Origin: Bacteroidales bacterium
GTDB lineage: Bacteria; Bacteroidota; Bacteroidia; Bacteroidales; UBA932
Assembly: GCA_017471045.1 (NCBI GenBank)
Contig: JAFUWZ010000007.1
Coordinates: 146,492 to 210,491, forward strand
Direction: 5' to 3'
DNA: 64,000 nucleotides
The notes under the pieces were generated by a model, which was not told the origin of the DNA, made no database searches, and saw only the letters and a list, made by a program, of their open reading frames with translations. Of this stretch, positions 28,601-32,479 are shown piece by piece. Numbering within the stretch: the stretch's first letter is position 1; the number at the start of each line of letters is the position of its first letter. The position numbers were made by a program, and so were the translations under genes.

Positions 28601-28960
28601 GGGCTGGGTCCCGTCGCCTACGTCAAGAACTTCGAGCTGGGCCTCCACGCCGACGCCGGGCTCTATGCGGCGGACAAGGCGGCGAGCACGGCGGCAGGAG
28701 CGAGGGCGGGCCAACATGGCGGCGTGCTTGAGCATGGCGGCGAGAGCGATTCTGCCGGGAATTGCGCTGACCGCGGTGCGCTGATGAGCGCCGGGGTCTC
28801 GTTCTGCGTCCGGCTGGGCAACCTGCTGTGGATTCCTTTCGACACCCGCATCGGCGCGAGCTGGTCCGTCAATTTCGGCCCGTCCTTCGATACGATAAAG
28901 CAAGCCGGCACAGGGCTGGATCGCCACTATGTCGGCCTGCTCTTTTCCATTGATTATTAG
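25688..28960 (+). CDS. Large exported protein: gluzincin-like metallopeptidase domain, beta-propeller, C-terminal barrel
   Basis: 1090 residues with a signal peptide (MKRGSWIALCFFLLAAASARA-Q). Residues 30-290 form a peptidase-MA-like domain with a possible HExxH zinc site (TTHEPRHAAQLQ) and a downstream acid in AFSEGDAVVTE. Residues 310-600 contain TolB/WD-like repeats (SEDGTRLAAMHYAADGSHQV). The last 400 residues are beta-rich with a C-terminal strand ending in Tyr (HYVGLLFSIDY), typical of outer-membrane barrels. Two in-frame oddities: a GEILRCAQDDN stretch encoded by a dispersed-repeat sequence (27578-27606), and a Gly/Ala-rich insert near 28680-28790 containing the direct repeat CATGGCGGCG. 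Function not known; the catalytic role of HEPRH is unproven. Confidence 0.7.
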   Translation: MKRGSWIALCFFLLAAASARAQFYSAGTDPGSVRWSEIRTENYRLIYPRGTDSLARAYALSLQTQYPRIGRSLGFAPSQLCRKPMPVILHPFTSFGNGMVMWAPRRMELYTLGDPADPDPMPWMLNLTTHEPRHAAQLQFGRRWPYKALRLLTGDLSDVAWWSVYTGIAFSEGDAVVTETALTESGRGRTADFLEYVRVAFDEGDWRDYYRWRYGSLKRFTPDHYRAGYLLAAGLRTSWDEPFFLKKYHDNLFSRKLPLPFFNMQYTIRETTGLSFKDAFSRISGDFQAVWAANDSLRGPFPEDRALTPAGRRYTAFRGAAADGDDIYAVQTGLERAPHLVRITPGGAVQDLGPFASSASDLRIAAGRLYWSEERRGPRWELAGTAVVRMMDLASGRKRTLLGGAAGRPLGAFLPEGVTRIPEGGRYFNPAPSEDGTRLAAMHYAADGSHQVVIVDGQDGLAQPADSAVQIRILNVPAGLQPVQGAWLAEALYVSAISEAGFGVYEATDSWRCVLPGRAVKIKQLRSRAGRLWFACDKNGVNELYSCDPASGTLVRQTNLRHGGQDFVFNAAGDSLRYTVLSTGGRAFHVAPVGAFAAVESDWDAIWRHPVAEKLAEQERALEAADTCGGEILRCAQDDNAGAEEGIGVSEPKAYRKAAHLLRFHTWAPLYIDYDAVADLSLSSLYGAAGLGATAFFQNDLATASGSIAYHASRPAPGDWGHLLDLRFDYKGWYPVIESSLTLDSTTPSHYSFTRLTDIQGTESNLVSVSGLRGPGLSFSTRVYIPLSFSGGGWNRGFIPQLRYSIGNSLFDGSVHYTRRFGLFPEKDRSLILTATEPGETAWLQTLSASVRGYVMRPTAPSGVYPRWGVGAELGGSLRPALTRIYDPTVYGYLYGYLPGFLPEHGLKLTALVQRQWDPARTFIPEQRVVTYPRGFAATGSALGRYLAEHYPTQTKLTADYLMAILPVDWSGLGPVAYVKNFELGLHADAGLYAADKAASTAAGARAGQHGGVLEHGGESDSAGNCADRGALMSAGVSFCVRLGNLLWIPFDTRIGASWSVNFGPSFDTIKQAGTGLDRHYVGLLFSIDY
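27578..27606. repeat. Dispersed-repeat-like sequence in frame inside the gluzincin/barrel gene
   Basis: The bases ATCCTTCGCTGCGCTCAGGAT (27581-27601) followed by GACAA have inverted ends (ATCCT/AGGAT). They encode ILRCAQDDN, a peptide (reverse frame VILSAAKDL) I know as the signature of a repeat scattered through many bacterial genomes. It falls in a probable linker between the propeller and the barrel. Confidence 0.5.
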
Positions 28961-29685
28961 ATCCCGGCGCCGTCGGCAAAAAAGTCCTGCGTCTTCCCCT
29001 GCAGCACGCGGGCACCCGCCGGGACGCTGTGGGTCAGCCAGACGTTGCCGCCGATGACGGCTCCCTCGCCGATCGTGATGCGGCCGAGCAGAGACGCGTT
29101 GGAATAGACCGTCACACCGTCCTGCACGATGGGGTGGCGCGGGATGTCCATCGGACGCCCGTCCGGCCCCTGCCGGAAGTTTCTCGCGCCGAGCGTCACG
29201 CCCTGATAGAAGGTCACGTGGCTCCCGATGACGGCCGTGGCACCGATCACGACACCCGTGCCATGGTCGATGGCGAAATGGTCCCCGATCGTCGCGGCCG
29301 GATGAATGTCGATCCCGGTCGTCGAATGGGCGTATTCCGTCAGCATACGCGGCAGCACCGGCACGCCGAGGCCATGGAGCACATGGGCCGTCCGGTAATG
29401 CAGCAGGGCGGCGACGGCCGGATAACAGGCGACGACCTCGTCCCGGCCCGCAACCGCCGGATCGTTGTTGATGATCGCGTCCACGTCGCTCTGGATCAAG
29501 GCGCGGATCCCGGGCAGGGCCTCCCGGAAGCGAGCGCCTGTCTCCTTAGGGGCCCCGACCTCATCCAACAACTCGGAGAGGAGGGACCCGATATCGGCGC
29601 AGGGCTCGCTGTACTCCGGGAAAACGTAACTGTGTACCCCGGTCATCAGGCTCCGGAGGGCGAGACGGATCTTGGGCAGATTCAT
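28957..29685 (-). CDS. cysE: Serine O-acetyltransferase
   Basis: 242 residues of the EpsC/CysE type: an N-terminal helical domain and a left-handed beta-helix of hexapeptide repeats (GIDIHPAATIGDHFAIDHGT, VVIGATAVIGSHVTFYQGVT) with the active-site DHGTG. It makes O-acetylserine from serine and acetyl-CoA. Its ATG overlaps the cysK stop by 4 bp, so the order is cysK-cysE and translation is coupled. The 3' end overlaps the convergent barrel gene by 4 bp (shared TTAG). Expression is probably governed by the attenuator in front of cysK. Confidence 0.95.
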   Translation of the reverse strand: MNLPKIRLALRSLMTGVHSYVFPEYSEPCADIGSLLSELLDEVGAPKETGARFREALPGIRALIQSDVDAIINNDPAVAGRDEVVACYPAVAALLHYRTAHVLHGLGVPVLPRMLTEYAHSTTGIDIHPAATIGDHFAIDHGTGVVIGATAVIGSHVTFYQGVTLGARNFRQGPDGRPMDIPRHPIVQDGVTVYSNASLLGRITIGEGAVIGGNVWLTHSVPAGARVLQGKTQDFFADGAGI

Positions 29686-30614
29686 AGCGGGTATTCGTCG
29701 AAGGCATACAGGATTGTGGAGAGGTAGCGCTCGCCCGTGTCGGGCAGGAGGGCGACGATCGTCTTGCCGGCGTGGGCGGGTTCGCGGGACAGCTGCAGCG
29801 CGGCGGCAAAGGCGGCGCCGGACGAGATGCCGACGAGCAGGCCCTCCCGGGCGGCAAGCTGGCGGGAGGCGCGGATGGCGTCGTCGTCGCTGACCGGCAG
29901 GATCCGGTCGACGACGGCCGGGTCGTACGTGTCAGGCACGAAACCGGCCCCGATGCCCTGGATCTTGTGTTTGCCGGCTACGCCGGTCGAAAGGACGGCG
30001 GAAGAGGACGGCTCGACGGCGACGACCTCAACGGCCGGATTGTGGCGCTTGAGGGTCTTCCCGGCACCGCTGACGGTTCCGCCCGTCCCGACACCCGAGA
30101 CGAAAAGATCCACCTTGCCTTCGGTCGCGGCCCAGATTTCCTCGCCGGTGGTCCGCTCATGGACGGCGGGGTTGGCGGGATTGACGAACTGGCCGAGAAT
30201 GATGGCGCCGGGGATGCTGTCGCGCAGCTCTTCGGCCCGGCGGATGGCGCCCTTCATGCCCTCGGCACCCGGGGTGAGTTCGAGCTTGGCTCCCAGCGCC
30301 TTGAGCAGGCTCCGGCGCTCCTGGCTCATCGTCTCCGGCATCGTGAGGATGACTTTGTAGCCTTTGGAGGTTCCGACCCAGGCGAGTCCGACGCCGGTAT
30401 TGCCGCTGGTGGGCTCGATCAGGGTGGCGCCGGGCTGCAGGAGCCCCTTCTGCTCAGCGTCTTCGATCATCGCCAGGGCGATGCGGTCCTTGACGCTGCC
30501 GCCGGGGTTGAAGTATTCGAGTTTGACAAGGATGTCGGCCTGTTGGCCGGGGAAGCCCGCTACGCGCAGCAGCGGCGTGTTTCCGATCAGTTCGGAGAGG
30601 TGATTGTAAATCAT
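29682..30614 (-). CDS. cysK: Cysteine synthase (O-acetylserine sulfhydrylase)
   Basis: 310 residues from the ATG at 30614 (MIYNHLSELIGNTPLLRV); the longer open frame reads through the terminator and is not coding. PLP lysine Lys42 in GGSVKDRIALAM, substrate loop PTSGNTGVGLAW, phosphate loop GVGTGGTVSGAG. It converts O-acetylserine and sulfide to cysteine. The leader (30615-30798) contains a poly-Cys peptide ORF and a terminator whose U-run ends 28 bp before the ATG, so transcription into this gene is predicted to respond to Cys-tRNA charging. Confidence 0.96.
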   Translation of the reverse strand: MIYNHLSELIGNTPLLRVAGFPGQQADILVKLEYFNPGGSVKDRIALAMIEDAEQKGLLQPGATLIEPTSGNTGVGLAWVGTSKGYKVILTMPETMSQERRSLLKALGAKLELTPGAEGMKGAIRRAEELRDSIPGAIILGQFVNPANPAVHERTTGEEIWAATEGKVDLFVSGVGTGGTVSGAGKTLKRHNPAVEVVAVEPSSSAVLSTGVAGKHKIQGIGAGFVPDTYDPAVVDRILPVSDDDAIRASRQLAAREGLLVGISSGAAFAAALQLSREPAHAGKTIVALLPDTGERYLSTILYAFDEYPL

Positions 30615-30642: not shown

Positions 30643-30682
30643 AAAAAAACACCTGCCCGCGGGATCGACCGACAGGCAGGTG
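30643..30682 (-). terminator. Attenuator terminator (3:4 hairpin) in the cysK leader
   Basis: Minus strand: CACCTGCC (30682-30675), 17-nt loop, GGCAGGTG (30657-30650), then seven T (30649-30643). The stem can extend by U-G, G-C, U-G pairs into the loop. It stands between the leader peptide and cysK, 28 bp before the start codon, so it would stop transcription before the structural genes. Confidence 0.85.
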
Positions 30683-30757
30683 CTATGGGTGTCACGATTG
30701 TCTCGTTCTGTCCTTATGATGCACACAGGAAGCCGTATCGGTCACGGGAGCCGATAC
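30667..30757 (-). promoter_or_regulatory. Cysteine attenuator: alternative pairings 1:2 and 2:3
   Basis: Arm 1 GTATCGG (30757-30751) overlaps the last Cys codon and pairs with arm 2 CCGATAC (30741-30735). Arm 2 extended, GACCGATACGGC (30743-30732), can instead pair with GCCTGTCGGTC (30677-30667) with one bulged C and one G-U pair. That second pairing uses the GCC of the terminator's left arm, so 2:3 excludes 3:4. A ribosome stalled on the Cys codons would cover arm 1 and favour 2:3 (read-through); one that finishes the peptide would allow termination. Confidence 0.75.
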
Positions 30758-30791
30758 AACAACAACAGCTGTTCACCTGAGTGCGTTTCAT
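30714..30791 (-). CDS. Poly-cysteine leader peptide of the cysK-cysE operon
   Basis: A 25-codon ORF beginning MKRTQVNSCCCCIG and ending FLCAS-TAA. Four consecutive TGT codons occupy 30767-30756, with a fifth Cys near the end. It is followed by the hairpins described above and the cysK terminator. Runs of the regulated amino acid's codon immediately before arm 1 are the hallmark of ribosome-mediated attenuation. The peptide itself need have no function. It is too short for ordinary gene calling. Confidence 0.85.
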   Translation of the reverse strand: MKRTQVNSCCCCIGSRDRYGFLCAS

Positions 30792-30798
30792 ACGGAGA

Positions 30799-30829
30799 CA
30801 AATATCTGAAATTGTTTTCAAAAAAGCAA
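30799..30829 (-). promoter_or_regulatory. Promoter of the cys leader
   Basis: Minus strand TTG (30829-30827), 20-nt spacer, GATATTTG (30806-30799; one mismatch to TAnnTTTG), 7 nt before the leader-peptide ATG. The -33 element starts 8 bp after the stop codon of the upstream small membrane protein, so the cys operon can be transcribed on its own with an almost leaderless peptide ORF. Confidence 0.5.
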
Positions 30830-30836
30830 CTTTTTC

Positions 30837-31118
30837 TTACTTTTTTCGGTCGATCCAGATCCAAAGGAGGTACATCACGGCGCCCCAGCCCAGGAAAAGC
30901 AGGATGGCGAGCCAGAGGGGAAGGTGCGAGTCGTAGACGTCGGAGCGGACGATCTTGTCAAAGTCGGGGATGTCCGCGTAGTAGTAAGCGCCGGCGCCGA
31001 AGTCCAGTCCTTCGACCAGCCCCATCCCGTGCACCATCACCCAGAGCGCAAGCAGCAAAACTGCCACGGCCAGGACGGCCGTGGCAATTTTGAATGCTTT
31101 CTTTCCTTTCGGGCCCAC
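30837..31118 (-). CDS. Small membrane protein, two transmembrane segments
   Basis: 93 residues with hydrophobic helices at about 9-30 (FKIATAVLAVAVLLLALWVM) and 66-88 (PLWLAILLFLGWGAVMYLLW). The loop between them (DFGAGAYYYADIPDFDK) is acidic, and both ends are Lys/Arg-rich, predicting both termini in the cytoplasm. It starts 2 bp after the YeiH gene ends and sits just before the cys operon. I do not recognise a family; an accessory subunit of the YeiH transporter is possible. Confidence 0.7.
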   Translation of the reverse strand: MGPKGKKAFKIATAVLAVAVLLLALWVMVHGMGLVEGLDFGAGAYYYADIPDFDKIVRSDVYDSHLPLWLAILLFLGWGAVMYLLWIWIDRKK

Positions 31119-31120
31119 TG

Positions 31121-32479
31121 CTATTTGAACAGGGCCAGTTCAGGCACCGGGAACACCACGCCGCTCAGCAGGAACCAGACGGCGAAGAGCGTCAGGGCGA
31201 TGTTGAACAGCTGTCCGATGACATAGAGCCAGAGAATCTTGCCGCCCTGCATGCGTTTGGCGATATCCTTGAAGTTGGTATCCAGGCCGATGCTGGTGAA
31301 GGCGAGGACGAACGCCCAGTTTTTGTACTGGTCGAGGACCTTGTTGATCGCGCCGACCTGATCGCCGCCGAAGATGGGCTGGATGATGAAGGAAGCCACG
31401 AGGGAGGCCACGAAGAAACCGATGATGAACTTCGGGAAACGCCGCCAGATCTCGCCGGCACCCACTTTCTCGGCGCCGCTGTTGTCCACGCGGGTCGCGA
31501 AGAAGACGGCCACGAAGAAGGCGATGAAGCCGATCAGGATGTTCTGGATGGACTTGACGAGCACGGCCGCCTGTTCCGCCTCCGCGCCCAGCGCATTGCC
31601 GGCCAGCACCACGGCGCCGGTGGAATCCACCGTGCCGCCGATCAGCGCGCCACCCATCAGCTGGTTCATGCCGCAGGCCTTGATGATCATCGGCTCGAAC
31701 ACCATCATCAGGATCGTGAAGATGATCGAGATGGAGATGGCTACCGACAGGTCGTCTTTCTTACACTTGGCGGCGGCGCCGGTCGCAATGGCGGCGCTCG
31801 TGCCGCAGACGCTCGTCGCGGAAGCCAGGGTGATCACGAGGGGCTTGTTGTCGATCTTGAGCACCTTGGTGCCCAGCCACCACATGAAGAGGATGACGAT
31901 CGGGGTCACGATCCACGCGATGCCGAGGCCGTAGAGGCCGAACTTGGCGATGTTGGAGAAGAGGACCGAGAAGCCCATGATCACGAGACCGGTCTTGATG
32001 TAGAACTCCGTGCGCACCGCAGGCTTGAGCCACTCGGGCACGCCGACCGTGTTGGAAACCAGCAGGCCGATGATGAGCGCCCAGAAGGCCCACTCGAGGT
32101 AGCGGTTGAGGGTGAACTCGGCGCTGACGAGACGCACGAGCACGGCCAGCACGAAGAGGGCCAGGAAGGCCGGGATGAATTTCTTGACCCTTTCGCCCTG
32201 GAGCTTGACGCCGATGGAGAAGAGCGTGCAGAGGGTTACGACGGTGACCAGCAGCTTGCGCCAAAAGACCCACTGCCCCAGTTGCTGTCCCAGCGGGACG
32301 GCCTTGGTGGCAGCTTTTTCGCCGAGGCTCCAGGTTGAGAATTTGAGGGCGGAGAAATCGAACCACCCGGTCAGGACCGCCACACATCCGATCAAGATGA
32401 TGATGAAACCGATCCAACATGCGAGCCAGTCTTCCTTCTTCCAAAGGTCAGACCAGTTTGTCTTTTTGGTAGATCCCAT
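31121..32479 (-). CDS. yeiH: YeiH-family (UPF0324) membrane transporter, putative sulfate exporter
   Basis: 452 residues with about 10-11 membrane helices. Family features include GTKVLKIDNKPLVITLASATSVCGTSAAIATG and GGTVDSTGAVVLAGNALG, a two-fold pseudo-symmetric arrangement. Members are annotated as putative sulfate exporters (Cons_hypoth698), with little biochemical proof. Placement immediately upstream of the cysK-cysE attenuator operon, with a two-TM protein between, supports a link to sulfur compounds. An exact palindrome lies in its promoter region. Confidence 0.85.
   Translation of the reverse strand: MGSTKKTNWSDLWKKEDWLACWIGFIIILIGCVAVLTGWFDFSALKFSTWSLGEKAATKAVPLGQQLGQWVFWRKLLVTVVTLCTLFSIGVKLQGERVKKFIPAFLALFVLAVLVRLVSAEFTLNRYLEWAFWALIIGLLVSNTVGVPEWLKPAVRTEFYIKTGLVIMGFSVLFSNIAKFGLYGLGIAWIVTPIVILFMWWLGTKVLKIDNKPLVITLASATSVCGTSAAIATGAAAKCKKDDLSVAISISIIFTILMMVFEPMIIKACGMNQLMGGALIGGTVDSTGAVVLAGNALGAEAEQAAVLVKSIQNILIGFIAFFVAVFFATRVDNSGAEKVGAGEIWRRFPKFIIGFFVASLVASFIIQPIFGGDQVGAINKVLDQYKNWAFVLAFTSIGLDTNFKDIAKRMQGGKILWLYVIGQLFNIALTLFAVWFLLSGVVFPVPELALFK

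Follow-up and report, generated by a model that had tools for sequence, protein, structure and literature searches.

What does a short open reading frame with a run of Cys codons do directly ahead of genes for cysteine synthesis? The question is raised by a locus in the window, the whole stretch of 64,000 nucleotides of Bacteroidales DNA that was analysed, in which the entire element, i.e., the leader ORF, the hairpins, cysK and cysE, lies on the minus strand (Table 1). The answer that we favour, with a probability of about 87% and on the strength of sequence comparison, is that the element is a ribosome-mediated transcription attenuator which governs cysK-cysE according to how much charged Cys-tRNA is available. 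Attenuators of the trp/his type, such as E. coli trpL, combine a leader ORF containing codons for the product of the pathway with a protector hairpin 1:2, an antiterminator 2:3 and a terminator 3:4. The window contains a leader ORF with product codons (judged by the annotation of cysK and cysE), a terminator before the first gene, an antiterminator that competes for the 5' arm of this terminator, and a protector hairpin that overlaps the sensor codons and competes with the antiterminator. In every structural feature examined the element matches a classical attenuator, and the regulation that it would exert is predicted.

The leader and the cysK-cysE operon

The initial annotation had described a 25-codon ORF with four consecutive Cys codons, followed by a U-tailed 3:4 terminator and then by cysK and cysE, and all of these were found, cysK with a match above the family cut-off and cysE with a best match below it. 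What it had said of the two other helices stood in part. The 1:2 hairpin is present and begins within the third Cys codon, not at the last one; the 2:3 alternative, in which arm 2 GACCGATA pairs with arm 3 TGTCGGTC, does compete for the terminator arm, and its duplex is 9 + 3 bp interrupted by one mismatch (12 bp in all) instead of the approximately 11 bp claimed. Comparison of related sequences shows the Cys codons and where they stand, the U tract, the operon and the three alternative helices, which are conserved.

Table 1. Features of the predicted attenuator and of the operon that follows it, in window coordinates.
Feature	Position	Strand	Description	Evidence
Predicted promoter	30799..30829	minus	-33 (G)TTG at 30829-30827, 20-nt spacer, -7 box GATATTTG at 30806-30799	sequence; comparison across leaders
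Leader ORF	30714..30791	minus	25 codons, MKRTQVNSCCCCIGSRDRYGFLCAS; ATG at 30791, stop at 30714	ORF listing; sequence; homologous Cys-run ORFs
Proposed sensor	30756..30767	minus	four consecutive Cys codons, codons 9-12	sequence; conservation in aligned leaders
Protector hairpin 1:2	30732..30760	minus	-14.6 kcal/mol; begins inside the third Cys codon	folding; covariation
Antiterminator 2:3	30667..30743	minus	arm 2, starting at 30743, pairs with arm 3, ending at 30667; 9 + 3 bp, -18.9 kcal/mol	folding; covariation; arm swap
Intrinsic terminator 3:4	30643..30683	minus	hairpin 30683-30650 and seven U, -25.0 kcal/mol	folding; covariation; T tract
cysK	29682..30614	minus	cysteine synthase A, 310 aa	TIGR01139, 429.9 bits (cut-off 350.95)
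cysE-like	28957..29685	minus	serine O-acetyltransferase, 242 aa	TIGR01172 best match, 152.4 bits, below cut-off 210.65

The Cys run is followed by 13 further codons before the end of the leader ORF, which could be 35 aa long if an in-frame TTG upstream is used. Folding of 145 nt gave z = -2.95, with none of 200 shuffles equally stable. The 3:4 terminator is absent from the list produced by a generic terminator scan of the window, probably because of a bulge in its stem. Generic scanning also returned a sigma-70-like match at 30641-30613, 3' of the terminator, a promoter type that Bacteroidota are not known to use. Downstream, the start of cysE overlaps the stop codon of cysK, whose relatives belong to Bacteroidales, and across the loci compared 30 of the 34 leader loci with room for it have cysE no more than 400 nt behind cysK, as against 39 of 84 loci without a leader.

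Conservation of the Cys codons and of the competing helices

Relatives of the window's cysK were taken as the best 80 loci from named genomes together with loci from genomes of the genus and family; the latter set contained 80 further stretches picked by hand, mostly better matches, with eight from the group of 43-52% identity. Before the counts, L143 and L154 were dropped because they were not oriented, L075 because its cysK is truncated, and L112 and L113 because they have no cysK, and the 217 loci were reduced to 212 and then to 199 distinct upstream regions, the second step removing 12 duplicates and one locus with less than 60 nt upstream. The initial annotation had suggested searching such regions for short ORFs with Cys runs. 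With the requirement of an ATG-started ORF of 8-45 codons containing at least three consecutive Cys codons no more than 300 nt from cysK, the search found 37 in the 199 regions, while in 50 rounds of dinucleotide shuffling the count averaged 0.2 and never exceeded 2; for runs of four Cys, the numbers were 22 observed and 0.02 shuffled. On the antisense strand one region has a run of at least three and none has a run of four, and among the residue runs compared Cys is the commonest (37), followed by Leu (11).

Covariation was examined in two alignments. In a plain MAFFT alignment of 19 leaders, the proportion of paired cells was 84.8% for 1:2, 91.8% for 2:3 and 88.1% for 3:4, and the covariation scores of all three helices exceeded those of all 500 shuffles. 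The second alignment was made with a covariance model containing 1:2 and 3:4 only, so that 2:3 was absent from the model; its input was 41 loci selected for a visible leader, of which 40 were aligned. L131, with a CCC run and a terminator, gave no match to this model. The near-copies L047, L097 (with the same upstream sequence as L021) and L102 were excluded from alignment A1. Over the 40 rows, 2:3 is paired in 94.3% of cells and scores 0.396 against 0.279 in shuffles, 1:2 is paired in 84.6% and scores 0.406 against 0.292, and 3:4 is paired in 92.2% and reaches the highest score of the three, 0.756 against 0.313; in each case none of the 500 shuffles attains the observed value. The kinship of the rows inflates such shuffle tests, which makes the slid controls important, and these give 2:3 at most 0.106 as opposed to 0.396 in register. 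In 2:3, 21 cells have changed on both sides, compared with 8.0 in shuffles. Two measures are weaker: the further pair types of 2:3 are matched by 35 of 500 shuffles and the pairs of 3:4 with two-sided change by 136 of 500.

The paired changes of 2:3 can be followed in individual leaders, with arm 2 and arm 3 reading GATTGG and CCAATC in L042, GATTAGCGG and CCGCTAATC in L034, ATGGGGT and ACCCCAT in L013, and TATTGGC and GCCAATA in L018. L210, whose hairpin arms are unaligned, was excluded from the arm swap as well as from the masking, the distance table and the promoter, stop and spacing counts, which leaves 39 leaders in each. When arms were swapped among these leaders, the mean pairing energy of arm 2 was -15.2 kcal/mol with the arm 3 of the same leader and -11.3 kcal/mol with a foreign arm 3, and the arm 3 of the same leader was better than the median foreign one in 35 of 39.

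Conservation of the terminator bears on the best-surviving alternative, translational attenuation, in which a ribosome stalled at the Cys codons would expose the start of cysK, as proposed for mycobacterial Cys leaders. The leaders do resemble those of mycobacteria (passages of PMC1262725) in having Cys runs in short ORFs that are probably leaderless, yet all 40 aligned leaders have at least four T within 8 nt after arm 4, 3:4 has the top covariation score, and in 39 leaders the cysK ATG is separated from the end of the hairpin by 16-98 nt and is not covered by it. We therefore regard translational attenuation as improbable.

The Cys codons themselves are conserved at the position where an attenuator would need them. 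In the 40 aligned leaders, the last three codons before the hairpin encode Cys in 114 of 120 cells (TGT in 92, TGC in 22, and one further cell with TGG), and a third base that drifts almost only between TGT and TGC points to selection on the meaning of the codon. A metabolite riboswitch or T-box with an incidental ORF would also place a long structured 5' region ahead of a biosynthetic operon, yet the Cys codons are conserved as codons, no Rfam family reaches its gathering score in the window, and the leader region, searched at E up to 5, returns an unrelated lncRNA only (E 1.5); this explanation seems to us very improbable. Less probable still is a functional Cys-rich peptide, metal-binding or secreted, beside a coincidental terminator: it would explain why Cys runs are conserved, yet the part of the peptide that recurs apart from Cys (DWYG-like) is encoded by arm 2, and in some leaders (L008, L074) the stop codon lies within the hairpin.

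The initial annotation had named homologous leaders without the Cys codons or the competing pairings as evidence against an attenuator. Overall the Cys codons are kept in the 114 cells just mentioned and 2:3 is kept by paired changes, with L011 and L012 as exceptions. L011, whose upstream sequence is identical to that of L092, retains the terminator behind a leader ORF without Cys codons and looks like a decayed or rewired attenuator; L012 has a single Cys at the hairpin. Two other leaders, L017 and L007, have CC or CLCC in place of a longer run. Some leaders, found in 661-base stretches ahead of cysK, are built differently: L194 has five Cys codons directly before its stop codon and no clear terminator, L205 reads CCCCCSCC, and L210 reads CCCCPYCC and is followed by a terminator-like hairpin. 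These three leaders possibly have independent origins.

Predicted switching and the start of the leader RNA

If the element works as an attenuator, transcription would begin at or just before the leader AUG and a ribosome would load immediately. When Cys-tRNA is scarce, this ribosome would stall in the Cys run and cover arm 1, arm 2 would pair with arm 3 as soon as arm 3 has been made, thereby blocking the terminator, and with arm 3 sequestered the polymerase would continue into cysK-cysE. When Cys-tRNA is plentiful, the ribosome would reach the stop codon. In 28 of 39 leaders the stop codon lies 12-18 nt past arm 2, where 1:2 would re-form behind the ribosome; in 4 it precedes the end of arm 2, so that the ribosome itself would cover this arm; and in 7 it lies 1-9 nt past arm 2. 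Whether through the re-formed 1:2 or through the covered arm 2, arm 3 would be left free and the terminator would form. That the leader is translated, that the ribosome stalls on it, which way the response goes and where transcription starts are all predicted here from the sequence. A signal carried by the nascent peptide was also considered; since the stretch ahead of the Cys run varies, this was judged unlikely.

The initial annotation had called for a comparison of the energies of 1:2/3:4 with that of 2:3, and its outcome agrees with a kinetic, not a thermodynamic, switch. A stalled ribosome was simulated by masking the RNA to 10 nt past the last Cys codon with arm 4 not yet made. Under these settings 38 of 39 leaders have a fraction of more than 0.4 of arm 2 paired with arm 3 (median 0.86), whereas in the unmasked RNA before arm 4 this is so in 13 of 39 (median 0.02), mostly because 1:2 holds arm 2; the pairing of arms 2 and 3 is greater masked than unmasked in 35 of 39. 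Once the RNA is complete, 3:4 outweighs 2:3 in 28 of the 39 masked leaders, 2:3 outweighs 3:4 in 10, and neither helix forms in one, L074, whose terminator was misplaced by the alignment. A purely thermodynamic switch was rejected because the complete RNA favours 3:4 in those 28 leaders even when masked, and the switch must therefore be kinetic. In the full unmasked RNA, 2:3 outweighs 3:4 in 5 of 39 (L099, L103, L104, L114 and L145). The folding pattern fits the kinetic behaviour of an attenuator, as a calculation and not as a proof of switching.

How the first ribosome might reach the leader in time is suggested by the sequence in front of it. Bacteroidota promoters have a -7 box, TAnnTTTG, centred at -7, according to the part of PMC7366714 used here, and the window's leader ATG follows the box GATATTTG by 7 nt. 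The core of this box, TTTG or TTCG, is followed at 6-9 nt by an in-frame ATG in 21 of 39 leaders (at exactly 8 nt in 13), and all but one of these 21 (20) also have a TTG 18-22 nt upstream of the box, the spacing expected of a -33 element. Random positions show the -7 box in 6.9% and both boxes in 1.7% of cases, a comparison in which a leader that has several in-frame ATGs had more than one chance. In loci that lack a leader, 7 of 159 cysK starts passed a looser form of the box test. Of the 21 leaders whose promoter lies at that distance, 18 have their last Cys at codon 11 or 12. Since the motif is centred at -7, the leader AUG can be estimated to lie about 0-5 nt from the start site, and the leader RNAs of the 21 box-bearing leaders probably have a leaderless or nearly leaderless start; in the same part of PMC7366714, the median 5' UTR is 32 nt and only about 3.7% are shorter than 10 nt. 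A universally leaderless start was rejected, because a -7 box at a distance of 5-10 nt from an in-frame ATG is missing in 18 of the 39. In one locus, L002 (2249-2326), a tRNA-His gene ends at 2324 and the leader ATG is at 2326, and with the ATG placed right after the tRNA gene, tRNA processing may produce the same kind of 5' end.

Upstream of the leader, on the same strand, the window has a gene for a YeiH-family putative sulfate exporter (TIGR00698, below the cut-off; 31121-32479, minus), and between this gene and the leader lies a 93-aa ORF without an NCBIfam match (30837-31118, minus). That the hairpin is an ordinary terminator of this upstream unit beside a chance ORF is scarcely credible in spite of the adjoining genes, because a same-strand yeiH occurs in the window's own locus only among the 35 leader loci long enough to test, the leader has promoter-like boxes of its own, and both 2:3 and 1:2 covary.

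Distribution and relation to known leaders

With the covariance model, 20 of 22 genomes, most of them chosen as leader carriers, gave a match at E up to 0.5. Twenty matches in these genomes have E below 1e-4, of which 19 are directly upstream of known cysK loci, and the twentieth, L237, stops at a contig edge and repeats the leader of L083; in the window's own genome the leader is the sole match. Three consecutive Cys codons are absent from every frame of the weak matches L238-L241 (E 0.07-0.24; that of G081 is not among these). An order-wide search of 393 genomes reached E of 0.01 or less in three, namely the window's own and those with the weak matches L112 and L113, and with eight candidates scored per genome it is weak evidence of absence elsewhere. 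L112 and L113 were rejected as leaders, since the matched stretch is without a Cys-run ORF and they look like plain terminators.

In a tree of 122 CysK proteins, all 36 rows with a leader belong to a single 82-row fork, whose support of 90/87 falls short of the program's star, and none of the 40 rows outside it has one. Within the fork the leader is patchy (36 of 82 rows), which takes at least 20 state changes compared with a shuffled mean of 31.1. Within one region of the tree the leader may have been lost or replaced many times, or it may have been gained repeatedly. The cysK genes of L073 and L079, titled Roseburia sp. and Bacillota bacterium, stand among those of Bacteroidota in this tree, as mislabelled bins or through transfer.

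In trpL, the sensor codons lie at about codons 10-12 and the stop codon lies between arms 1 and 2. The Cys leader has the same layout as the trp/his-type attenuators, including the position of the sensor codons at about 10-12, and differs from trpL in its Cys codons and its cysK-cysE operon, in being probably leaderless or nearly so, and in a stop codon that usually lies 12-18 nt past arm 2. Mycobacterial polycysteine ORFs, which Canestrari is said to have reported as leaderless in 2020, likewise have Cys runs in short ORFs before Cys genes, with a leaderless start that is here predicted. In the mycobacterial cys operons, as described in passages of PMC1262725 (Seliverstov 2005), the run is near the stop codon and no conserved hairpins capable of termination are found; in the window, by contrast, the Cys run is in the middle of the ORF and a U-tailed hairpin follows.

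Similar in design is uORFC-8-2, found before cysS in Rhodobacterales, for which the portion of PMC8632094 considered here describes Cys codons in tandem, a pair of stems and a final run of U, and proposes readthrough dependent on Cys-tRNA, i.e., a predicted Cys-codon attenuator with an intrinsic terminator. The window leader shares with it the Cys-codon uORF, the stems and the U run, and falls outside its definition by standing before cysK in Bacteroidales and not before cysS in Rhodobacterales. It also differs in that uORFC-8-2 controls a cysteinyl-tRNA synthetase in another phylum with two Cys codons, usually at 14-15, and covariation for a competing antiterminator is not among the features described in that portion of PMC8632094. 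Within the phylum of the window, attenuation by leader peptides of amino-acid operons has been inferred in Flavobacterium psychrophilum, with no Cys case named in the relevant part of PMC9723704. Among the matches listed in the open-licence literature there is no Cys attenuator for cysK-cysE or in Bacteroidota. The initial annotation had known of none in this phylum, and as far as the search went this is borne out, but the cysS attenuator of Rhodobacterales had already been predicted in part of PMC8632094. New are the combination of Cys codons and a cysK-cysE operon with an intrinsic terminator, the occurrence in this phylum, and ribosome loading that is probably leaderless. On balance we lean towards the fuller reading that this is a complete Cys-tRNA attenuator with a terminator on a leaderless or nearly leaderless leader, where the ribosome would load at the 5' end of the RNA and meet the last Cys at a fixed distance (codon 11-12), and that it would be the first classical attenuator of cysteine biosynthesis, independent of the mycobacterial ORFs.

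We are not aware that a cysteine regulator has been described for these Bacteroidales of gut and rumen, most of which are uncultured, and a literature search aimed at such regulators found none named among the matches listed. The element offers a specific, testable model of cysteine regulation in these bacteria. Attenuation requires the first ribosome to be closely coupled to RNA polymerase, and Shine-Dalgarno sequences are little used in Bacteroidota. Should the leaderless start be real, this coupling would be attainable without Shine-Dalgarno initiation, and it would raise the question of whether leaderless starts are a general solution for the leader peptides of Bacteroidota.
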